NCBI GenBank assembly: GCA_018396795.1
Contig: JAGTRH010000054.1
Span: forward strand, 1 to 8,210
DNA: 8,210 nucleotides
Reading direction: 5' to 3'
DNA from: Candidatus Bathyarchaeota archaeon
Lineage (GTDB): Archaea > Thermoproteota > Bathyarchaeia > Bathyarchaeales > B26-1
Under the pieces are notes generated by a model. It was not told the origin of the DNA. It saw nothing but the letters and a program-made list of their open reading frames with translations, and searched no databases. Positions 2 through 8,210 of this stretch are shown here, one piece after another; positions within the stretch are counted from its first letter, which is position 1; every line of letters begins with the position of its first letter. The position numbers were made by a program, and so were the translations under genes.

Positions 2-733
2 ATCTTTAATTTTCACAGGCGTCCTATCTTAGCAAAGATGGCAAAATGGATATTATCATCTTTTGATGTGATAATTACCTTAGCCAAGAAATCAAGGGAC
101 GAGTTAACAGCGATTGGCCTTTCAGGGGGAAAAATGAAGTTGTGCACGCACTGGGTTGATTTAAATGAATTCAGACCTTTAAATAGGAATAAATGTAAAG
201 AAAATCTTGGCTTAAACAGAAAATTTGTCATATTGTTTGTGGGCAGATTTATTGCTAAAAAAGGGATAGATGTGTTGCTTGATGTTGCCTCTGAAGTCAA
301 CCCTGAAGTAGTCTTCGCGTTTATTGGCGACGGCCCTTTATCTGCCAAAATCAGAGAAAGAGCTAGAGATCAACAAAACATCATATTTGTTGGAAAAGTT
401 CCAAAAGAAGACTTGGTGAGGTATTATAATGCCGCAGATTCTCTCATAATTCCTTCCCAGTACGAGGAGCTCTTTGGAAGGGTAGTTATAGAAGCCCTGG
501 CTTGCGGTACGCCTGTAATAGCATCAAATAAGGGGACTCTTCCTGAGATTGTTGATCCATCGGTTGGAATCGTTGTTGATCCATCAAGAGAAGATATTGT
601 CAAAGTGGTAAATTTCCTTTATGAGAATCCCGAGCAACTGGCAAGAATGCGATCTAATTGCAGACATTATGCCAGCGCCAACTTTAGCGAGAAGAACGCT
701 GAAGACATTGCCAGCGCTTATAAAATCGACTAA
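2..733 (+). CDS. GT4-family glycosyltransferase, C-terminal part (5' truncated by window edge)
   Basis: The frame is open from base 2 with no stop, so the gene begins outside the window; the ATG at 38 is internal. About 243 residues are visible: the end of the N-terminal acceptor domain and the whole C-terminal Rossmann domain of a GT-B retaining glycosyltransferase. Visible GT4 hallmarks are the hinge segment 'THWVDLNEF', the 'FVGRFIAKKG' donor-phosphate loop (Arg codon 245-247, Lys codons 257-262), 'FIGDGPL', and the E-x7-E nucleotide-sugar motif in 'EELFGRVVIEALACGTPVI' (Glu codons 467-469 and 491-493). The family transfers a sugar from a nucleotide sugar to a lipid-linked or glycan acceptor at the cytoplasmic face of the membrane. 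Two stop codons in a row (731-736) end it, 19 bases before the next gene. Sugar specificity cannot be read. The family call is very secure; the role in surface-glycan assembly is inferred from the neighbours. Confidence 0.93.
   Translation: MFNFHRRPILAKMAKWILSSFDVIITLAKKSRDELTAIGLSGGKMKLCTHWVDLNEFRPLNRNKCKENLGLNRKFVILFVGRFIAKKGIDVLLDVASEVNPEVVFAFIGDGPLSAKIRERARDQQNIIFVGKVPKEDLVRYYNAADSLIIPSQYEELFGRVVIEALACGTPVIASNKGTLPEIVDPSVGIVVDPSREDIVKVVNFLYENPEQLARMRSNCRHYASANFSEKNAEDIASAYKID
718..725 (+). promoter_or_regulatory. Possible archaeal TATA box (TTATAAAA) before the first methyltransferase
   Basis: TTATAAAA lies in the last codons of the upstream glycosyltransferase, centred about 31 bases before the ATG at 753. 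Archaeal transcription starts about 25-27 bases after the box centre, so a transcript would begin only a few bases before that ATG, giving an almost leaderless mRNA. This fits the lack of a good Shine-Dalgarno sequence there. I see no clear purine-rich BRE upstream, and such AT-rich words arise by chance in this DNA, so the call is tentative. Confidence 0.3.
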
Positions 734-752
734 TAAAAACTTATGGGAAAAG

Positions 753-1604
753 ATGAACGAACAAACAATTAGCCAGATTTTAGTTAATGTGTGGGATCTT
801 TGCTTTAGAAGAAGGGTTATTACCATATTAAGTTATTTGAACGTTAAAGATCATGATTTAGTACTGGACTGCGGTTGTGACGAGGGTTTTTATGGGATGA
901 TATTAAGCGAAGTTTATAAGCCTAGTGTTGTCGGATTGGACGTTGACATAAATACATTGAAAATGGCAAAGAAAAGACTGGGCATATACCCTAGTAATTT
1001 CTTGATTCGAGGGGATGCGACGAGAATCCCGTTTAAGGATGAAACCTTTGATAAAGCTATCCTTTCCGAACTTTTGGAACACGTGCTTGATGATCGAGAG
1101 GTGTTGAAGGAAGTATACAGAGTGCTCAAACCAGGTGGCACAATTGGTATAACAGTTCCTAATCGAAATTACCCTTTTCTTTGGGATCCATTAAACAAGA
1201 TGCGAGAATCCATGGGACTCGGGCACTTTGGACCTGCAGATTCGCTTATAAGCGGTATATGGTCTGGGCATCTCCGACTTTATTACCCTCAACAAATTAA
1301 AAAATTGGTGGAAAGTGTCGGTTTTAAGGTAGAACGGATAGACCCCATAACATACTATTGTATACCTTTTAACCATATAATTCTGGACATTGGAAAAGCC
1401 TTTTACACACACATATCTATACCTCAGTTATACGAAGCTATGGAGAAATTTGAGTGGAGAAAAACTAGATTGAATTCTTCTCTAAATCCTGTTTACATTA
1501 CGCGTAGAATTATGTATGCTATTGACAAACTTAATGATAGGTTTTGCGGTACAACAAAGCCGTCAGTATGTGTAGCTCTAAAAGCTGTGAAGCCAACGAG
1601 ATAA
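753..1604 (+). CDS. Class I SAM-dependent methyltransferase (Methyltransf_11-like)
   Basis: The product is 283 residues with a Rossmann-type methyltransferase core. Motif I is 'VLDCGCDEG' (residues 37-45, SAM-binding glycine loop). Strand 2 ends in the acidic 'VGLDVD' (Asp63, expected to bind the SAM ribose), followed by 'GDATRIPF' (87-94, adenine contact), 'SELLEHVLD' (105-113) and 'VYRVLKPGG' (121-129). A 'GHLRLYY' segment (172-178) followed by 'LVESVGF' is typical of small-molecule and sugar methyltransferases of this clan. A C-terminal extension of about 80 residues after the core has no motif I know and may shape the substrate pocket. The ATG at 753 was chosen because the frame's earlier ATG (621) would lie deep inside the upstream glycosyltransferase and add 44 unrelated residues. 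The gene starts 19 bases after the glycosyltransferase and ends 4 bases before a second methyltransferase. O-methylation of a glycan sugar is the likeliest job given the context, but the substrate is unknown. Confidence 0.9.
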   Translation: MNEQTISQILVNVWDLCFRRRVITILSYLNVKDHDLVLDCGCDEGFYGMILSEVYKPSVVGLDVDINTLKMAKKRLGIYPSNFLIRGDATRIPFKDETFDKAILSELLEHVLDDREVLKEVYRVLKPGGTIGITVPNRNYPFLWDPLNKMRESMGLGHFGPADSLISGIWSGHLRLYYPQQIKKLVESVGFKVERIDPITYYCIPFNHIILDIGKAFYTHISIPQLYEAMEKFEWRKTRLNSSLNPVYITRRIMYAIDKLNDRFCGTTKPSVCVALKAVKPTR

Positions 1605-1608
1605 AACT

Positions 1609-2298
1609 ATGACAGCAGGGTTTAGTAAGGAATATTTTGAAGAGGGGAAGGGTTCTGCATATAGAAGGGGTTATGCAGCAACAAAGGAGCAAGTAAACAT
1701 ATATGCTACACTGACTTATGAAACCTTCCAAAAGTATGGAAAAAAGACATCAAAGCCGAGAATTCTGGATATCGGTTGTGCCTTTGGCTATCTTCTAGGA
1801 TTTTTTGATAGACTTGGATTTGAAACCTTCGGAATCGACGTATCTAGTTACGCGATTCAGAGGTGTAAGGAAACTACAAGAGCAAAGACATTTATCTGTG
1901 ATGTTCAGACGGGAACGCCTTTTGGCGAGAGTTTCTTTGATCTCATTACCCTATTTGATATTATTGAACACCTTGGAAGACCACTAGATGCTTTAAGTGA
2001 GATTTATAGAATTTTGAAACCAGATGGCTTGATCATTTTGTCAACCCCGAATGCAAATTCGATTGGTAGATTTTTATTAAATAAGAAATGGGCAGGGTAT
2101 ATTGACCAAACTCATCTTATTTTGTATACTTCTTATACTATAAGTTTACTTTTAGAAAGAGCAGGATTTAAAACGATAGAAATAAAGAAACCACAGTTTT
2201 ATCCATTTTCCACCCTCTTTAAAGGGAAATTAACCATGTTATGGATTAACAATCCCCTAGGTGGGAGTATATGGATAGTAGCAAGGAAAAAGACTTAA
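1609..2298 (+). CDS. Class I SAM-dependent methyltransferase (Methyltransf_23-like)
   Basis: This 229-residue protein opens with 'EYFEEGKGSAYRRGY', a lead-in common in methyltransferases of polysaccharide loci. The core follows: motif I 'ILDIGCAFG' (52-60), acidic strand-2 end 'FGIDVS' (Asp77), 'ICDV' (96-99), 'LFDIIEHLGRP' (115-125, His121 after the Glu), 'IYRILKPDG' (132-140) and 'LSTPNANS' (144-151). After the core, 'DQTHLILYT' (166-174) is a conserved substrate-side element in this group. It has the same fold as its upstream neighbour but differs in length, N-terminus and motif detail, so this does not look like a recent tandem duplication. It begins 4 bases after the preceding stop, with no Shine-Dalgarno sequence, and its last 28 bases overlap the next gene, so translation of the three is probably coupled. 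Likely role: methylation of a sugar or a glycan end group; the acceptor is not visible. Confidence 0.91.
   Translation: MTAGFSKEYFEEGKGSAYRRGYAATKEQVNIYATLTYETFQKYGKKTSKPRILDIGCAFGYLLGFFDRLGFETFGIDVSSYAIQRCKETTRAKTFICDVQTGTPFGESFFDLITLFDIIEHLGRPLDALSEIYRILKPDGLIILSTPNANSIGRFLLNKKWAGYIDQTHLILYTSYTISLLLERAGFKTIEIKKPQFYPFSTLFKGKLTMLWINNPLGGSIWIVARKKT
2259..2263 (+). promoter_or_regulatory. Shine-Dalgarno site (AGGTG) for the second glycosyltransferase
   Basis: AGGTG matches the core of the archaeal AGGAGGTGA ribosome-binding consensus and lies 7 bases before the ATG at 2271, a good spacing. It sits inside the end of the upstream methyltransferase and supports the start that gives a 28-base overlap. 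It is the only convincing Shine-Dalgarno sequence in the window, as expected for a gene inside an operon rather than at its head. Confidence 0.55.
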
Positions 2299-3479
2299 GC
2301 ATTTTAGGTATATTTTTAGGACTAACGCTCTATCCTGGCTTTGTAAGCGGAGGAGATCTTCACTTTATTGAACTTTTAAAGCGATGTAAAACGCAAAAAC
2401 TTGCTATAGTAACGTCTAAAACAGGCGCCAGAGTTCTTAAAGACAATAGCATTAATGCAAAGACATTTGTTATCTCAGTTCCCTTTGAGGATATACTATG
2501 CAACATGCGAACTCTATCAACAATCACATTATTTTGGATCTTTGTTACGCGCATATTGAAGCTGTTCTTTTTGGTATTTCTTCTTCCTCGTGATTTCCAT
2601 ATAATCTGTGCTTCCTCCCATGGCCTTTATGATGTTCTACCTGCTGTAATCATTTCCAGAATAAGCCCAAGCTCTAAACTTGTTGTGTACGCTCATCTTT
2701 TAGAGCCCCCACCCTTTGAAAGAGCTAAGTATAGTCCTTTACTGCCTAACATTCTTACATGGGTGTCTCAAAGCCTTAGTATTCTACTAATAAAGCGCGC
2801 GCACGCTGTCGTATTTGTGTATCCTTCCGAAGAAGAATGTGCAATCAGGCATGGCATTTTGAGGATGAAAGTTAAAACCATGTATAATGGCATAAATGTG
2901 GAAGAAATTAACAAAGTTGGAAAATTGAGGAACGAGTACGATGCGTGTTTTCTCGCGAGACTTGCTCCATATAAAGGCATTTTCGATATTGTTAGGATAT
3001 GGAAAATAATATGTCAGAAACTGCCTAATGCGCGAATTGCTGTTATAGGTACTGAAAGGGAGAAATATGTTTCTAGGCTAAGGAATGTGATTAAGGAAGC
3101 TGGTTTAGGGAACAATATTACATTACTCGGCGCATTGAGCGGAGAGAAGAAGTACGCAGTCCTTAAATCATGTAAGATTTTCTTTTACCCGAGTTATTTA
3201 GAAAGCTGGGGAATAGTTGTTTATGAAGCAATGGCATGCGGGTTGCCCGTAATAGTTTACGATCTACCAGCCTACAAGATTTTGGATGGTGGTGCTATTA
3301 TTAAGGTTAAAATAGGGAATACAGAGGCCTTCTCAAAGGCAACATTAAAGCTCCTTACGGATGAGGAGTTAAGAAGAAAGATGGGCAAAAGAGCTAAAAC
3401 GATCGTGAGTCAATTCGATTGGGATAAGGTAATAGAGAGAGAATTAGATATTCTCTCTGCGCTTTTAAGGAATATGTAA
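2271..3479 (+). CDS. GT4-family glycosyltransferase, complete
   Basis: The product is 402 residues, a normal length for a GT-B enzyme of family GT4. The N-terminal domain starts at 'LYPGFVSGGDLHFIEL' (20-35), with the glycine-rich acceptor-side loop of this family. Residues about 85-105 form a strongly hydrophobic helix ending in 'FFLVFLLPRDF', likely a membrane-association patch and not a signal peptide. The C-terminal domain has 'YNGINVEEI' (205-213), 'CFLARLAPYKG' (Arg230 and Lys235 as donor-phosphate contacts), 'AVIGTE', and the E-x7-E motif 'ESWGIVVYE' (Glu311, Glu319) followed by 'AMACGLPVIVYDLPAY'. All landmarks expected for activity are present. It should transfer a sugar from a nucleotide donor to a lipid-linked or protein-bound acceptor on the cytoplasmic face. 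The start is supported by an AGGTG site 7 bases upstream and by the position of the first beta strand. Sugar and linkage are unknown. Confidence 0.94.
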   Translation: MDSSKEKDLSILGIFLGLTLYPGFVSGGDLHFIELLKRCKTQKLAIVTSKTGARVLKDNSINAKTFVISVPFEDILCNMRTLSTITLFWIFVTRILKLFFLVFLLPRDFHIICASSHGLYDVLPAVIISRISPSSKLVVYAHLLEPPPFERAKYSPLLPNILTWVSQSLSILLIKRAHAVVFVYPSEEECAIRHGILRMKVKTMYNGINVEEINKVGKLRNEYDACFLARLAPYKGIFDIVRIWKIICQKLPNARIAVIGTEREKYVSRLRNVIKEAGLGNNITLLGALSGEKKYAVLKSCKIFFYPSYLESWGIVVYEAMACGLPVIVYDLPAYKILDGGAIIKVKIGNTEAFSKATLKLLTDEELRRKMGKRAKTIVSQFDWDKVIERELDILSALLRNM

Positions 3480-3592: not shown

Positions 3593-6500
3593 ATGAGAGA
3601 GGAAATCAAAAGGAAGTTTGAAAGGAAACACTTAAAAAGGATTAAGATTCGAGTGCGTACTGGCGCTATTGTTAATCTAAGTGTATTTTCATCATTTTTA
3701 GTGGTTGCGCTCATCATCTTTCGGAAAATCATCCTTTCGCCAGGGGTTATTGGCTTAGTGAACGACTGGTTTATACCGCCTTTTTCGGGGCAGTTTAAAC
3801 AATTATTTGAAATGAATTGGTACGCATGGTACCCCTACATGGATTTTGGTCAGCGTAGTGGCACGCTGAGCTCAATCCTACTTTACAGGATGTTTCTTTA
3901 CCTTTTGGCCTCACTTAGCCTAGATGGTGGTGTAATATCGAAGATCATCGTGATATTTGTATCAACATTAGCAGGCTTCTCCATGTTCTATTTATGCAGA
4001 CAAATGAAGATCTCATTATTTCCAGCAGTGCTTTCAGGCATCTTTTATATGATGACGCCTATGGTTTTCGATTATTTCGTCGGGGGAATAGAATTTATTG
4101 TGTTTATTTATGCATTGATGCCGTTAATTATCGTCTTCTTTGGAAAATCACTAGAAGAAAAAAACTATAAGAATATCATTATAACTGACATAGCGATCGG
4201 TCTCGCATCTAGCCTCCTGCATATCATCATTATAGGAGTCGCGCTTTTACTTTTCTTCCTTCTTTACAGTTTACAGAGAAAAAATGGTCACGGCTTTCTT
4301 TATTGTTTAAAAATTTTCAGTATTATATTATGTATCAGCTTTCTAATAAGTACATTTTGGATGCTCCCTCTCGTTGACGATGTAATTAAAGGACGGATGT
4401 ATGAATGGTGGGCCGCAGCTCGCCCTCTCCCGATGGAACATTACTTGTTTATGGAACAGTTGGCTTATCCTATAAACATTGTAAGGCTTATAGGTTTCCC
4501 TGCAGGTTATTTCCTCCAGACCGCCTCAACTTCTTATCATTGGCAAGCCGTGAGCTTTATTCCAGTTTTCTTAGCCCTCTTAGCCCTATTGCTCAGACCT
4601 AAAGATGAAAAAGTAATATTCTTTGGAATATTGGCAACGATAGGCATCGTGTTATCTGCTGGAACGAAGGGCCCACTTGATGGAATATGGCTCTGGTTAT
4701 TGAGGGAAACACCCCTAAGGATATTCAGAGAATCCTATAAGTGGATTCCATTAGCATGCATGGGCTACGCGTTTCTCCTAGGAAAGGTTTCTGAAGCCTT
4801 CCAACATTTCGCTTTTAAGAAATTAATCTCCCTAAGTCTGTATAAAAGAAACCTCTTTTCCTCAATGACTCATTCGCAGTTCAAAAAGAGGGCAATCGCA
4901 TCCCTTTTTACGTTTTTAATATTTGGTAGTGTCGTGTTTGCTTCTTCTTGGCCATTTCTCACAGGCGATCTCGGCGGAAATATGCGAACATACAATTTTG
5001 ATCAATATAGAGAATCTTGGAAGTGGCTTTACAACAACCCAAAAGATTTCAGAGTTCTTATGCTACCTGCACCCTATCCTACGCTGTATCCTGGACAAAA
5101 ATATGAAAGCGAGGATATCATATCACATTTTGCGGGAAAACCGTCCATCTATGTTGGTAAGATAACTGCTCCGCAGTTTACGTTATTTCTAATCAAAACT
5201 CTATATGAAAACCGAACAGCTTATCTAAGTAAACTCCTTGGGCTGGCTAATGTCAAGTATATTGTCTTTGACACTGGTAAGATATCGACAAAAACAGCAT
5301 GGTGGATACCCCAAAAATACTTTCCATCAGCACTCTTCACCAACGAAAAAATAATTAGTACGCTAAATCAGCAAGAGAGCATAAAATTAATCAAAAGTGA
5401 TGGTACTATAATTATTTTCAACAATACAGATTACTTGCCTCATGTATTTCCAGCTGATCAGATTAGTTTAATCGCAGGAGACCTTAGCTCTTTAGTAAGC
5501 ATTACTTACATGGAAAGCTTAAAGCTGGAAAGCTTGGGACTAATTTACGTCAATCAACTATCAGCCGAAGACATTAAAATTCTCAGCAACCTTCCCAACG
5601 TAAGAATTATAGTTCAAGATGATTATTTCCTTGAGCTTGTTTTGTCGGCTGTTCCAAAAGAATACATACTAAGACCTATTGAGTATGCTGTGGCCAGCTC
5701 ACCTTTTGAGGGTTGGTGCCCCTATGCTGATTGGTATTGGTATAACTGGTATTATACTGCTGAGTTAGATCGGCTTGTCTTCACATTTGTAAAATCTAAC
5801 CTAACGGTTCCTTACGCGCTAAAGCAAAGTAAAGATTACAATGTTTATTTGAAGACTTATTTTAGTCCTCGTGCATCCAAAATTACGATTTACGACGGTG
5901 GCTTAAAGATAGGGGAGATCACGACCAATGCGTTGAACGAGTTAGGCTTTAGGTGGGTGAATTTAGACTCAGCTCGTTTAAATCAAGGCGACCACGTTTT
6001 GAAAATTGAAAGCGGAGAAGGGGAGAACATTATCGCAAGCATAGCCGTGGTTCCAAAGGACGTTATGGAAGATGCTTTTGAATCGGTTAATGATTTAGTG
6101 CGCAATAAGCAAGTAATTTGGTTATCCGAACTAGAAAAGTGGCAAGTACCTAAAAATATTGCTTGGGCTCAAAGGTGCTTCGACTGTCTGAGATGGCATG
6201 TGAACCCAAATACGATGAAATGGTTAAAATCCAGCATGGTTGAAAATGACACTTTTATTCTCACCGCTCATTTTCATGGAAATGAAACCGTGGCTGAGGA
6301 AGTAGAGATGTACACTGATACAAAACCCATAAATCTTAGGAGTTACCCCTATTTCGAGCTCAGCTATAAGGTTCAAGCCCCTCAAGTACAAACAGTCGCT
6401 ATTGATTTATATGTGGATTTCACAGGCGATTACGTGGCTGATGAAATTGCTTACGACTGGTCAGCGCGTCCATTATTTCAAGTACCTGCACTAAGCGAAT

Positions 6501-7372
6501 ATACATGCTACCAATTTAACATGCTAGAAGAAGTTAAACAGCGCTTCCCAAACAATGAAGCCTACAATTTAGTTGGCGTAAAAATACATTTTAAGAAATT
6601 GAATGTAATGGCGGATGGAAACTACAACTTCTTTATAAAACACGTTCAAGTGTACGGCCTCCCGTGGACACCTTCAGAACTAGGAGTTATCGCTAGTCAT
6701 GGTTTCGCCACGGTCACTAAGCACAACGCCCCGATTAATCGATCATTGTATATTCCAAAGCAAGGGCTGTACGAAATTTACTTGAGAGGTGCTAGTAAGA
6801 TAATTGACTCAGTATTAACAATAAATATGAGCAAAACGGAATTTAAAGCATTATTACATCCCATAAGTGGCGGGCTCCATTGGTATAAAGTAGGAGAAAT
6901 AACACTATCTGAAGGTTTTCACGATGTGTTCCTGAAAACAGATGGTGGTGATGAAGTTTTTCTCGATCAATTACTGATTATGCAGACATCTGATTCACTC
7001 AGAGCCTCGCCAATTACCACTAGTCTTATGCATGAGAGAGTTAACCCCACTAAATACTTGATACACGCTAACGCCTCGCAACCTTTCTATGTAATTTTTA
7101 GTGAAGCCTATGATGATTCATGGAAGATTCACTTAGAGGATGACTCAATACGAGGTTATCCAACATACTCCTTTGGAAATATCTTCTTCATCAATAAGAC
7201 GGGAAGGATAAATATGCTCTTAGAATATGAGCGTCAAAAACTATATGAAGTTGGAAAATGCATATCATTCAGTTCTTTCATCATTCTATCATCATTCCTA
7301 ATTATTCCATCTAGCATCCTTAAATTATTCTCAAAGCGAATAAGAAGCAGAATAAGGCATAATGGGAAATAG
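3593..7372 (+). CDS. Giant GT-C-like membrane protein with large extracytoplasmic beta-rich region (putative polyprenyl-phosphate-sugar-dependent glycosyltransferase)
   Basis: The protein has 1259 residues. The start is fixed by an in-frame TAA at 3581-3583, 9 bases before the ATG. A basic cytoplasmic N-terminus (1-24) precedes roughly ten to eleven membrane helices (about 25-45, then 92-260 and 318-452). The first outside loop carries 'VNDWFIPPF' (Asp58), the place where GT-C enzymes keep their catalytic acid. 'LLRETPLRIFRESYKW' (369-384) and 'RVLMLPAPYP' (487-496) resemble AftD/DUF3367- and YfhO-type proteins, as does 'LGLANVKYIVFD' (549-560). Outside follow a possible mixed alpha/beta domain (about 615-695), a sugar-binding-like beta-sandwich (about 735-820), a second (about 880-1022) with the Asp-rich loop 'DFTGDYVADE' (942-951), a third (about 1050-1131), and 'FYVIFSEAYDDSWKIHLED' (1165-1183), a YfhO-like C-terminal module. 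A final helix (about 1222-1245) leads to a basic tail. Basic loops at 400-433 and 1246-1259 agree with this topology. It probably acts on lipid-linked glycans outside the membrane; the reaction is not proven. Confidence 0.8.
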   Translation: MREEIKRKFERKHLKRIKIRVRTGAIVNLSVFSSFLVVALIIFRKIILSPGVIGLVNDWFIPPFSGQFKQLFEMNWYAWYPYMDFGQRSGTLSSILLYRMFLYLLASLSLDGGVISKIIVIFVSTLAGFSMFYLCRQMKISLFPAVLSGIFYMMTPMVFDYFVGGIEFIVFIYALMPLIIVFFGKSLEEKNYKNIIITDIAIGLASSLLHIIIIGVALLLFFLLYSLQRKNGHGFLYCLKIFSIILCISFLISTFWMLPLVDDVIKGRMYEWWAAARPLPMEHYLFMEQLAYPINIVRLIGFPAGYFLQTASTSYHWQAVSFIPVFLALLALLLRPKDEKVIFFGILATIGIVLSAGTKGPLDGIWLWLLRETPLRIFRESYKWIPLACMGYAFLLGKVSEAFQHFAFKKLISLSLYKRNLFSSMTHSQFKKRAIASLFTFLIFGSVVFASSWPFLTGDLGGNMRTYNFDQYRESWKWLYNNPKDFRVLMLPAPYPTLYPGQKYESEDIISHFAGKPSIYVGKITAPQFTLFLIKTLYENRTAYLSKLLGLANVKYIVFDTGKISTKTAWWIPQKYFPSALFTNEKIISTLNQQESIKLIKSDGTIIIFNNTDYLPHVFPADQISLIAGDLSSLVSITYMESLKLESLGLIYVNQLSAEDIKILSNLPNVRIIVQDDYFLELVLSAVPKEYILRPIEYAVASSPFEGWCPYADWYWYNWYYTAELDRLVFTFVKSNLTVPYALKQSKDYNVYLKTYFSPRASKITIYDGGLKIGEITTNALNELGFRWVNLDSARLNQGDHVLKIESGEGENIIASIAVVPKDVMEDAFESVNDLVRNKQVIWLSELEKWQVPKNIAWAQRCFDCLRWHVNPNTMKWLKSSMVENDTFILTAHFHGNETVAEEVEMYTDTKPINLRSYPYFELSYKVQAPQVQTVAIDLYVDFTGDYVADEIAYDWSARPLFQVPALSEYTCYQFNMLEEVKQRFPNNEAYNLVGVKIHFKKLNVMADGNYNFFIKHVQVYGLPWTPSELGVIASHGFATVTKHNAPINRSLYIPKQGLYEIYLRGASKIIDSVLTINMSKTEFKALLHPISGGLHWYKVGEITLSEGFHDVFLKTDGGDEVFLDQLLIMQTSDSLRASPITTSLMHERVNPTKYLIHANASQPFYVIFSEAYDDSWKIHLEDDSIRGYPTYSFGNIFFINKTGRINMLLEYERQKLYEVGKCISFSSFIILSSFLIIPSSILKLFSKRIRSRIRHNGK

Positions 7373-8210
7373 ATTGAAGATCGCCATATTTGAGCCGAAG
7401 TTCCTTCTCCATCCTAGTGTGGCAGGACCACATACAACATTGATAAAAAGGCAAGCAGAGTTTTTTAGCGAGTCTGGACATGAGGTTGTCATAATAACCG
7501 AAGACATCAATAATAAACAAATGATGGAATCGAGAGAGGATTACGCTATTTACAAGATACGATGTATACTCTCTTGTCTCAGTCGCTTTTTCTTCACCCC
7601 TACTATTTACGTGCCTACTTTCTCCGAGGGATTTGCCCCAAGTATAATATTTAAGACTATAGAAGTTCTAAAAAAAGAGCCTCATATAGATGTTATTTAT
7701 TCCTCTGGTACTCCAATCCCTGGGGTAGTAAGCAACGCTCTCATAAGCCAAAAAAGCGGGATACCCTCTGTGTACTATTTCTTTTATTCCTTTAAGTCTA
7801 GTAGGTGGTGGACTGCTGATATGCCAATAGTAGGGGGAATACCATCACGGTACGTTATTGGCCAATTCTTTAGAATGGCCCTTCGTGAGTTGCTTAGGAG
7901 GAAGAGTTTTCTTAGATGGGGTCTCAGACACATAAATCGGATCATAGCGAGCTCGGTATATGTTAAAAGAAATATTCAAGAAATTGAGCCGCCCTTAAAA
8001 AAGATAAATGTGGTATATCCTAGTGTTACAATACCGTCAGAGAAAGTAATAAAAAAGGAACAAGACAATCTAATAATCACTTACTTTGGTCATCTACGCT
8101 TTGACAGGGGTGTGATTGACGTTTTGAAGGCCTTCTTGACCGTTATTAAGATTTATCCTAATGTGAAATTGATGATAGCTCCAAGTAACATTCATAACCC
8201 AACAAAGATG
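7362..8210 (+). CDS. GT4-family glycosyltransferase, N-terminal 283 residues (3' truncated by window edge)
   Basis: The frame is open from the ATG at 7362 to the last base of the window, giving 283 residues with no stop. It begins 'MGNRLKIAIFEPKF', a first GT-B beta strand, then 'GPHTTLIKRQAEFFSESGHEVVIIT' is the acceptor-domain helix and second strand. 'VIYSSGTPIPGVV' (111-123) and 'INRIIASSVYVKRNI' (191-205, the strand-helix pair ending the N-terminal domain) follow. The C-terminal domain opens with 'NVVYPSV' (216-222) and 'ITYFGHLRFDRGVIDVLKAF' (239-258), where Arg246 and Arg249 stand at the donor-phosphate loop and Arg replaces the more usual Lys. The E-x7-E motif lies past the edge, so catalytic competence cannot be judged. 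The gene overlaps the membrane protein gene by 11 bases, suggesting translational coupling. TTG at 7374 is an alternative start costing four residues. Family assignment rests on the overall GT-B pattern. Confidence 0.87.
   Translation, partial: MGNRLKIAIFEPKFLLHPSVAGPHTTLIKRQAEFFSESGHEVVIITEDINNKQMMESREDYAIYKIRCILSCLSRFFFTPTIYVPTFSEGFAPSIIFKTIEVLKKEPHIDVIYSSGTPIPGVVSNALISQKSGIPSVYYFFYSFKSSRWWTADMPIVGGIPSRYVIGQFFRMALRELLRRKSFLRWGLRHINRIIASSVYVKRNIQEIEPPLKKINVVYPSVTIPSEKVIKKEQDNLIITYFGHLRFDRGVIDVLKAFLTVIKIYPNVKLMIAPSNIHNPTKM

Follow-up and report, generated by a model that had tools for sequence, protein, structure and literature searches.

What does a membrane protein of 1259 residues do in an archaeon in which its gene lies among genes for glycosyltransferases? 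The protein is encoded in an 8,210-nucleotide stretch of Candidatus Bathyarchaeota archaeon (contig JAGTRH010000054.1; the whole stretch is called the window below), and an earlier note, made from the DNA letters, had proposed a glycosyltransferase or glycan-remodelling enzyme with an elaborate outer part. On comparing sequences and predicted structures, we consider it probable that the protein is a GT-C glycosyltransferase of AftD-like type at the archaeal cell surface, one that would pass a sugar from a polyprenyl phosphate to a surface glycan. By prediction and comparison it has a GT-C fold, an outer region that aligns with AftD, sandwiches of the carbohydrate-binding module (CBM) type, a conserved acid at position 58 and a setting of GT4, GT2 and methyltransferase genes.

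Fold and resemblance to AftD

The layout described in the earlier note, a multi-spanning N-terminal half, some 770 outer residues, a final helix and a basic tail, agrees with the open reading frame (ORF) and its hydropathy. Ten peaks precede residue 453 and are followed by a loop of 767 residues and a single peak at 1220-1238; the N-terminus carries 11 lysine and arginine and three acidic residues, the C-terminal tail seven and none, respectively. A long helix at 381-418 in the predicted model was missed by the hydropathy scan. Counted as an extra span, it would make the number of spans odd, as is needed for the 767 residues to lie outside.

Two protein searches returned 20 proteins (P0001-P0020, the window's own included), and the few source names given to relatives read hypothetical protein. 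The window protein and seven others at 39-46% identity form a close group of eight (alignment A2). Precomputed domains place PF11847 on P0005, P0006, P0007 and P0018, and PF09586 on P0016, P0017, P0019 and P0020. A contig scan of genomes with the single window protein found no relative; the same scan with A2 found four, in Candidatus Hecatella orcuttiae (43%, best segment), a Parvarchaeota archaeon, Candidatus Borrarchaeum yapensis and a Microgenomates bacterium. Two larger alignments, A3 with 38 relatives and A4 with 32, were chosen by length and score; P0006, P0007 and P0014-P0020 are in neither, and locus L046 was left out.

The link to AftD, an enzyme best known for being essential in mycobacteria, comes from profile and fold searches. 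AftD was the only significant profile match in PDB (E 1.5e-15), and mycobacterial AftD gave the best structural Z for both halves of the protein (27.0 and 22.6), the models of which are good: the mean pLDDT is 86 for the N-terminal half (model A) and 82 for the outer part (model B, in which residue = model index + 439). The predicted model and the AftD matches in the fold search bear out the GT-C fold that had been claimed for the N-terminal half, and fold, profile and hhalign matches likewise support the resemblance to AftD (DUF3367) and YfhO that had been read from two motifs. These lie at residues 554-560 (VKYIVFD) and 1170-1178 (SEAYDDSWK). The V-K-Y of the first is kept in six of seven further sequences with letters there, the seventh having A-K-Y; in the second, E1171 is conserved in 23 of 32 rows of A4 and W1177 in 30 of 31.

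In AftD (PF11847; PDB 6w98, 6wbx and 6wby) the GT-C domain, the mixed module and the CBM-bearing outer part are arranged along most of the chain as in the window protein. The window protein has a GT-C domain of the AftD arrangement and a large CBM-bearing outer region, and both proteins carry an acid after helix 1, which is Asp in the window protein. Three carbohydrate-binding modules are described for AftD in the accessible text of PMC8698533, and the archaeal protein likewise has three outer sandwiches. There are differences as well: the same text gives AftD 16 membrane helices, five of them C-terminal, whereas the window protein has one C-terminal helix; the modules of AftD are F5/8-type, while the archaeal ones are CBM6/35/36-like and CBM11-like; and AftD binds acyl carrier protein (accessible part of PMC12041299), of which the archaeal protein gave no sign, though no search was aimed at it. 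Because the window protein stays below the Pfam cut-off and differs in the number of C-terminal helices, we call it AftD-like and not AftD. The suggestion that the combination of domains may be an undescribed family finds no support in that wording, since this architecture is already known from AftD and the archaeal enzyme is a variant of the AftD plan, not a new kind. It is, though, an archaeal subfamily of its own, without a name in the family libraries searched.

Active-site candidates and competing readings

Could Asp58 be the catalytic residue? In A3, where 38 of 39 rows have a letter at this position, the column holds 26 D, eight E, three Q and one N and ranks first in acidity among the 580 columns examined. 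The conservation across homologues that had been expected was thus found in the form of an acid, with D or E in 34 of 38 rows and in all eight rows of A2. Of the two findings that the earlier note had named as contradicting its view, lack of a GT-C fold and an Asp58 outside a conserved outer pocket, neither was encountered, the second being judged by conservation. Asp58 is aligned with the Asp of the bacterial AftD-like protein P0018, with the 'GGD' Asp of the YfhO-type protein P0017 and with that of P0019. From a further set of 15 sequences, 12 matched the GT-C profile (the STT3-like, PMT_2 and Wzx proteins did not); ten of these have a letter at position 58, which is acidic in nine, and one of the ten, a second Hecatella protein (L011), was already in the profile. 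At position 117, 33 of 38 rows have Lys, as the window protein does. A conserved Asp serves as base or nucleophile in GT-C arabinosyltransferases described in the literature (accessible part of PMC12041299).

A number of points weigh against the reading as an AftD-like glycosyltransferase. All structure models are predictions, and in the Foldseek ranking of model A, oligosaccharyltransferase (OST) chains (8.1e-9) come ahead of AftD (3.6e-6). The window protein passes no Pfam or NCBIfam cut-off, that of PF11847 included: its best Pfam match is PF10131 (PTPS_related; 24.4 bits vs a cut-off of 26.4, E 1.3e-5), neither PF11847 (GT-C_AftD) nor PF09586 (YfhO) is listed for it at E up to 1, and a single-sequence search of PDB returned no match at E up to 1. 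The PF11847 cut-off is passed by P0005, P0006, P0007 and the second Hecatella protein. Position 58 is Q or N in four of 38 rows, the Q rows (L019, L020 and L029) being near-copies of one another; the relative P0007 has Ser there, and the HMMER alignment places 6w98 with an offset of two residues at Asp58. At position 379 only 27 of 39 rows share the Arg of the window protein, and His166, common in 27 of 38, is replaced by Ile in the window protein. As to the genes around it, the window itself holds no donor synthase gene, and at locus L055 no labelled glycan gene lies beside the family gene. Flippases of the GtrA family (PF04138), looked for as a possible third component, turned up in one of 17 genomes with the enzyme family (16 of the 17 genomes of the neighbourhood comparison below and the genome of locus L002), and a complete three-component system is therefore not claimed.

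The replacement of His166 would suit a non-catalytic or transport-assisting protein like MmpA, itself also related to the N-terminal part of AftD; such a protein would help to move a glycolipid or scaffold a glycan-building complex. The NCBIfam model of MmpA matches residues 105-190 (E 1.1e-4; 20.9 bits vs an equivalog cut-off of 210), and a partial homology of MmpA to AftD residues 1-668 is stated, with data not shown there, in the accessible text of PMC8698533. However, the acid at position 58 is retained in A2 and A3 as given above, and close relatives keep the CBM-like outer region, so we regard such a role as unlikely. A transferase of the YfhO type (PF09586) would perform the same chemistry and differ in its nearest kin. 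YfhO is the last enzyme of the CsbB-GtcA-YfhO glycosylation system (accessible part of PMC8035078), and its N-terminal GT-C part is related to that of the window protein, with the same Asp; in hhalign, A3 matches P0017 (E 1.1e-20, 357 columns) as well as it does P0018, and YfhO-type proteins have, by eye, a similar small C-terminal module. The P0017 match stops short of the outer region, however, whereas P0018 aligns over 542 columns, and the GtrA-type flippase that the three-component system uses is, as said, present in one of the 17 host genomes. AftD leads by VIA for both models, in a comparison that is uneven, as no YfhO structure is among the matches listed. A tree of 45 GT-C parts (midpoint root, many long branches) recovers the group of eight at full support (100/100) and leaves it unsettled whether AftD or YfhO is nearer. 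We give the YfhO-type reading a slim chance. Very improbable, too, is an OST-type enzyme (STT3/AglB-like), which would transfer a whole glycan from polyprenyl diphosphate to protein: despite the Foldseek ranking, AftD outscores OST by VIA for model A and is first for model B, the WWDxG motif that defines STT3 is absent from all 20 proteins, and the STT3-like protein of L002 stays unmatched by the GT-C profile at E up to 10.

Outer modules and a possible mechanism

Outwards along the chain, the mixed module is followed by a CBM6-like sandwich, a helix, the strand 840-846, an inserted sandwich, a CBM6/35/36-like sandwich, a small beta module and the last helix. The borders proposed earlier (615-695, 735-820, 880-1022 and 1050-1131) fit the predicted strands well, but the three sandwiches do not just follow one another along the chain. 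For most CBM35/36/6 chains the alignment begins at model index 399-403 and ends near 692, which in the protein means from about 840-846 to about 1131, and these alignments, known by their first and last aligned residues, hold more residues than the 92 of 1040-1131. It follows that 848-1039 would be an insert within the last sandwich, and strand 840-846 appears to belong to the sandwich at 1040-1131, split by this insert. The sugar-binding character that had been suggested for the sandwiches is supported by their predicted fold, which is that of the CBM6/35/36 family. E846 is conserved in 20 of 27 rows and D1125 in 26 of 32; residues like these can bind calcium in CBM6/35/36 families.

The insert is variable. 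The stretch 848-1039 has 136-247 residues in 20 of the 33 rows of A4 and 0-26 in the other 13, eight of which keep both flanks and five of which also lack most of the second flank; several of the ORFs in A4 are incomplete. A likeness to CBM_11 that stays below the cut-off (E 6e-4 to 4e-3) is seen for the insert of P0008-P0011, and no family was recognised for that of the window protein, P0002 and P0003. The pLDDT of the inserted sandwich is 35-81 by blocks. A separate frame of 486 codons in Hecatella (G001:C2:432941-433351) matches the profile only where the inserted module lies (862-1002, E 1.1e-11), and the inserted sandwich may thus also occur outside the enzyme. The beta module at 1144-1212 is an addition to those listed in the earlier note; it is the third stretch of the HMMER match to AftD, a weak one (11.2 bits), and N1196, besides the E1171 and W1177 mentioned above, is conserved there in A4.

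From these features and from the neighbouring genes we infer the donor, the acceptor, the catalysis and the glycan binding of the enzyme. GT4 enzymes would first build a glycan inside the cell. A sugar carried on polyprenyl (dolichyl) phosphate, after its synthesis and flipping elsewhere, would then enter the membrane-facing cavity, where Asp58 may act as the base (or nucleophile), and the sugar would pass to a glycan whose chain the outer CBM modules hold outside the cell. The inserted sandwich perhaps tunes which glycan is accepted. A comparable working is described for the GT136 enzyme ORF12 of Citrobacter, which joins a GT-C domain to an outer CBM that binds the polymerised glycan and takes its sugar from a polyprenyl phosphate (accessible part of PMC11127046); this likeness is known from the description, not from sequences. 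AglS of Haloferax volcanii, which adds mannose from dolichyl phosphate to the S-layer N-glycan (accessible part of PMC4973528), is a precedent for the reaction only.

Table 1. Positions in the window of the AftD-like gene, its parts and the neighbouring genes
Feature	Coordinates	Strand	Basis
Probable AftD-like GT-C glycosyltransferase, 1259 aa	3593..7372	+	ORF, ATG start; fold and profile matches to AftD; seven close relatives in A2
GT-C membrane domain, residues 1-455, ~11 spans	3593..4957	+	
Asp58 codon, putative catalytic acid/base, first outer loop	3764..3766	+	Column acidity; aligned with Asp of YfhO-type and AftD-like proteins
Mixed alpha/beta module beside membrane, residues 465-690	4985..5662	+	Secondary structure of both models; within AftD-aligned stretch
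First beta-sandwich, CBM6-like, residues 735-821	5795..6055	+	
Probable first strand of split CBM6/35/36-like sandwich, residues 840-846	6110..6130	+	Suggested by alignment ends
Inserted, swappable beta-sandwich, residues 878-1021	6224..6655	+	Length variation in A4; CBM_11-like in P0008-P0011 below cut-off
Main part of CBM6/35/36-like sandwich, residues 1040-1131	6710..6985	+	
Small C-terminal beta module, residues 1144-1212	7022..7228	+	Also in AftD and, by eye, YfhO-type proteins
Last membrane helix and basic tail, residues 1213-1259	7229..7369	+	Hydropathy peak 1220-1238; tail K+R 7
GT4 glycosyltransferase, cut by window edge	2..733	+	PF00534 E 4.8e-36 on 38-730; 46% identical to Hecatella neighbour
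S-adenosylmethionine (SAM) methyltransferase	621..1604	+	PF08241 E 7.9e-19
SAM methyltransferase	1609..2298	+	PF13489 E 8.1e-24
GT4 glycosyltransferase	2271..3479	+	PF00534 E 1.6e-34; 49.6% identical to Hecatella neighbour
GT4 glycosyltransferase, N-terminal part	7362..8210	+	PF13439 E 1.1e-9; 38% identical to Hecatella neighbour

Gene neighbourhood, relatives and wider meaning

The order of genes in the window (GT4, two methyltransferases, GT4, GT-C, GT4) parallels that of the Hecatella locus L043, where the best matches are 30% identical for the first methyltransferase and 43% for the GT-C gene (those of the three GT4 genes are in Table 1). Among 17 family loci of the class, GT4 genes lie nearby in 16, GT2 in 15 and methyltransferases in eight, against three, three and none in 20 control regions, which were hand-picked from ten genomes and are not random. 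Without the locus that supplied the baits the counts are 15, 14 and seven of 16 (Fisher p 2e-6, 1.6e-5 and 0.001, respectively). It is a fair inference from this conserved neighbourhood that the GT-C enzyme finishes what the GT4 genes start, as the earlier note had supposed. At the Parvarchaeota locus L002, which also carries the STT3-like gene, one neighbour resembles polyprenyl-phosphate sugar synthases (PRK10714, GT2; 160 bits vs a cut-off of 529) and another AglJ (202 bits vs 325). Wzx-type proteins occur in two of the 17 family loci, and L042 has another, some 11 kb away from the Hecatella gene. Within the window, the last GT4 ORF overlaps the GT-C gene, stop codon included, by 11 bases (7362-7372), and their translation may be coupled; the first methyltransferase ORF shares 113 bases with the GT4 before it (621-733), and its true start is therefore probably further in.

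How widely is this enzyme distributed? In the class of Hecatella (Bathyarchaeia in the NCBI taxonomy), with at most two candidates per genome scored among the rows shown, 61 of 256 genomes match. By our reading of the table, the match covers at least 100 profile positions of the GT-C half in 49 of them. In the remaining 12 it is confined to the outer or C-terminal part or to a short piece, so that as a count of whole enzymes 61 is too high. Profile A3 matches 17 of 141 genomes in the class of the Parvarchaeota locus, four of five in that of Borrarchaeum and 123 of 137 in that of the Microgenomates locus, and the weak matches in these three classes may be other GT-C proteins. A search of the open-access literature, with subscription papers mostly outside its scope, found no paper on archaeal AftD-like enzymes.

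We suggest, tentatively, that Archaea and Microgenomates-type bacteria could be home to a large radiation, as yet unnamed, of AftD/YfhO-type GT-C enzymes which decorate surface glycans after assembly and independently of AglB, with a fixed catalytic half and a nested, exchangeable sandwich in the outer CBM that selects the acceptor chain. If this is true, the mycobacterial AftD that makes arabinan would be a specialised offshoot within a far broader group. The whole AftD plan in Bathyarchaeia, together with the relatives in Parvarchaeota, Borrarchaeum and Microgenomates, offers a wide natural series on acceptor choice by CBM-bearing GT-C enzymes. It also points to a way in which uncultured archaea may complete their surface glycans, and the split CBM with its exchangeable insert makes the choice of acceptor testable by comparing natural homologues.

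Some genomes carry more than one such gene. Many genomes of the Microgenomates class (locus L004) have several matches on one contig, and the small genomes of this class seem, from their sequences, to carry many GT-C enzymes of the AftD/YfhO-like kind. The second AftD-like protein of Hecatella (L042:15109-17205, + strand, 699 aa; PF11847 E 1.2e-8) is encoded about 13 kb from the main gene, and its gene adjoins one for a Wzx-type flippase. About 7 kb separates two different family members at the Parvarchaeota locus (L002:9749-13552 and L002:20808-23219).

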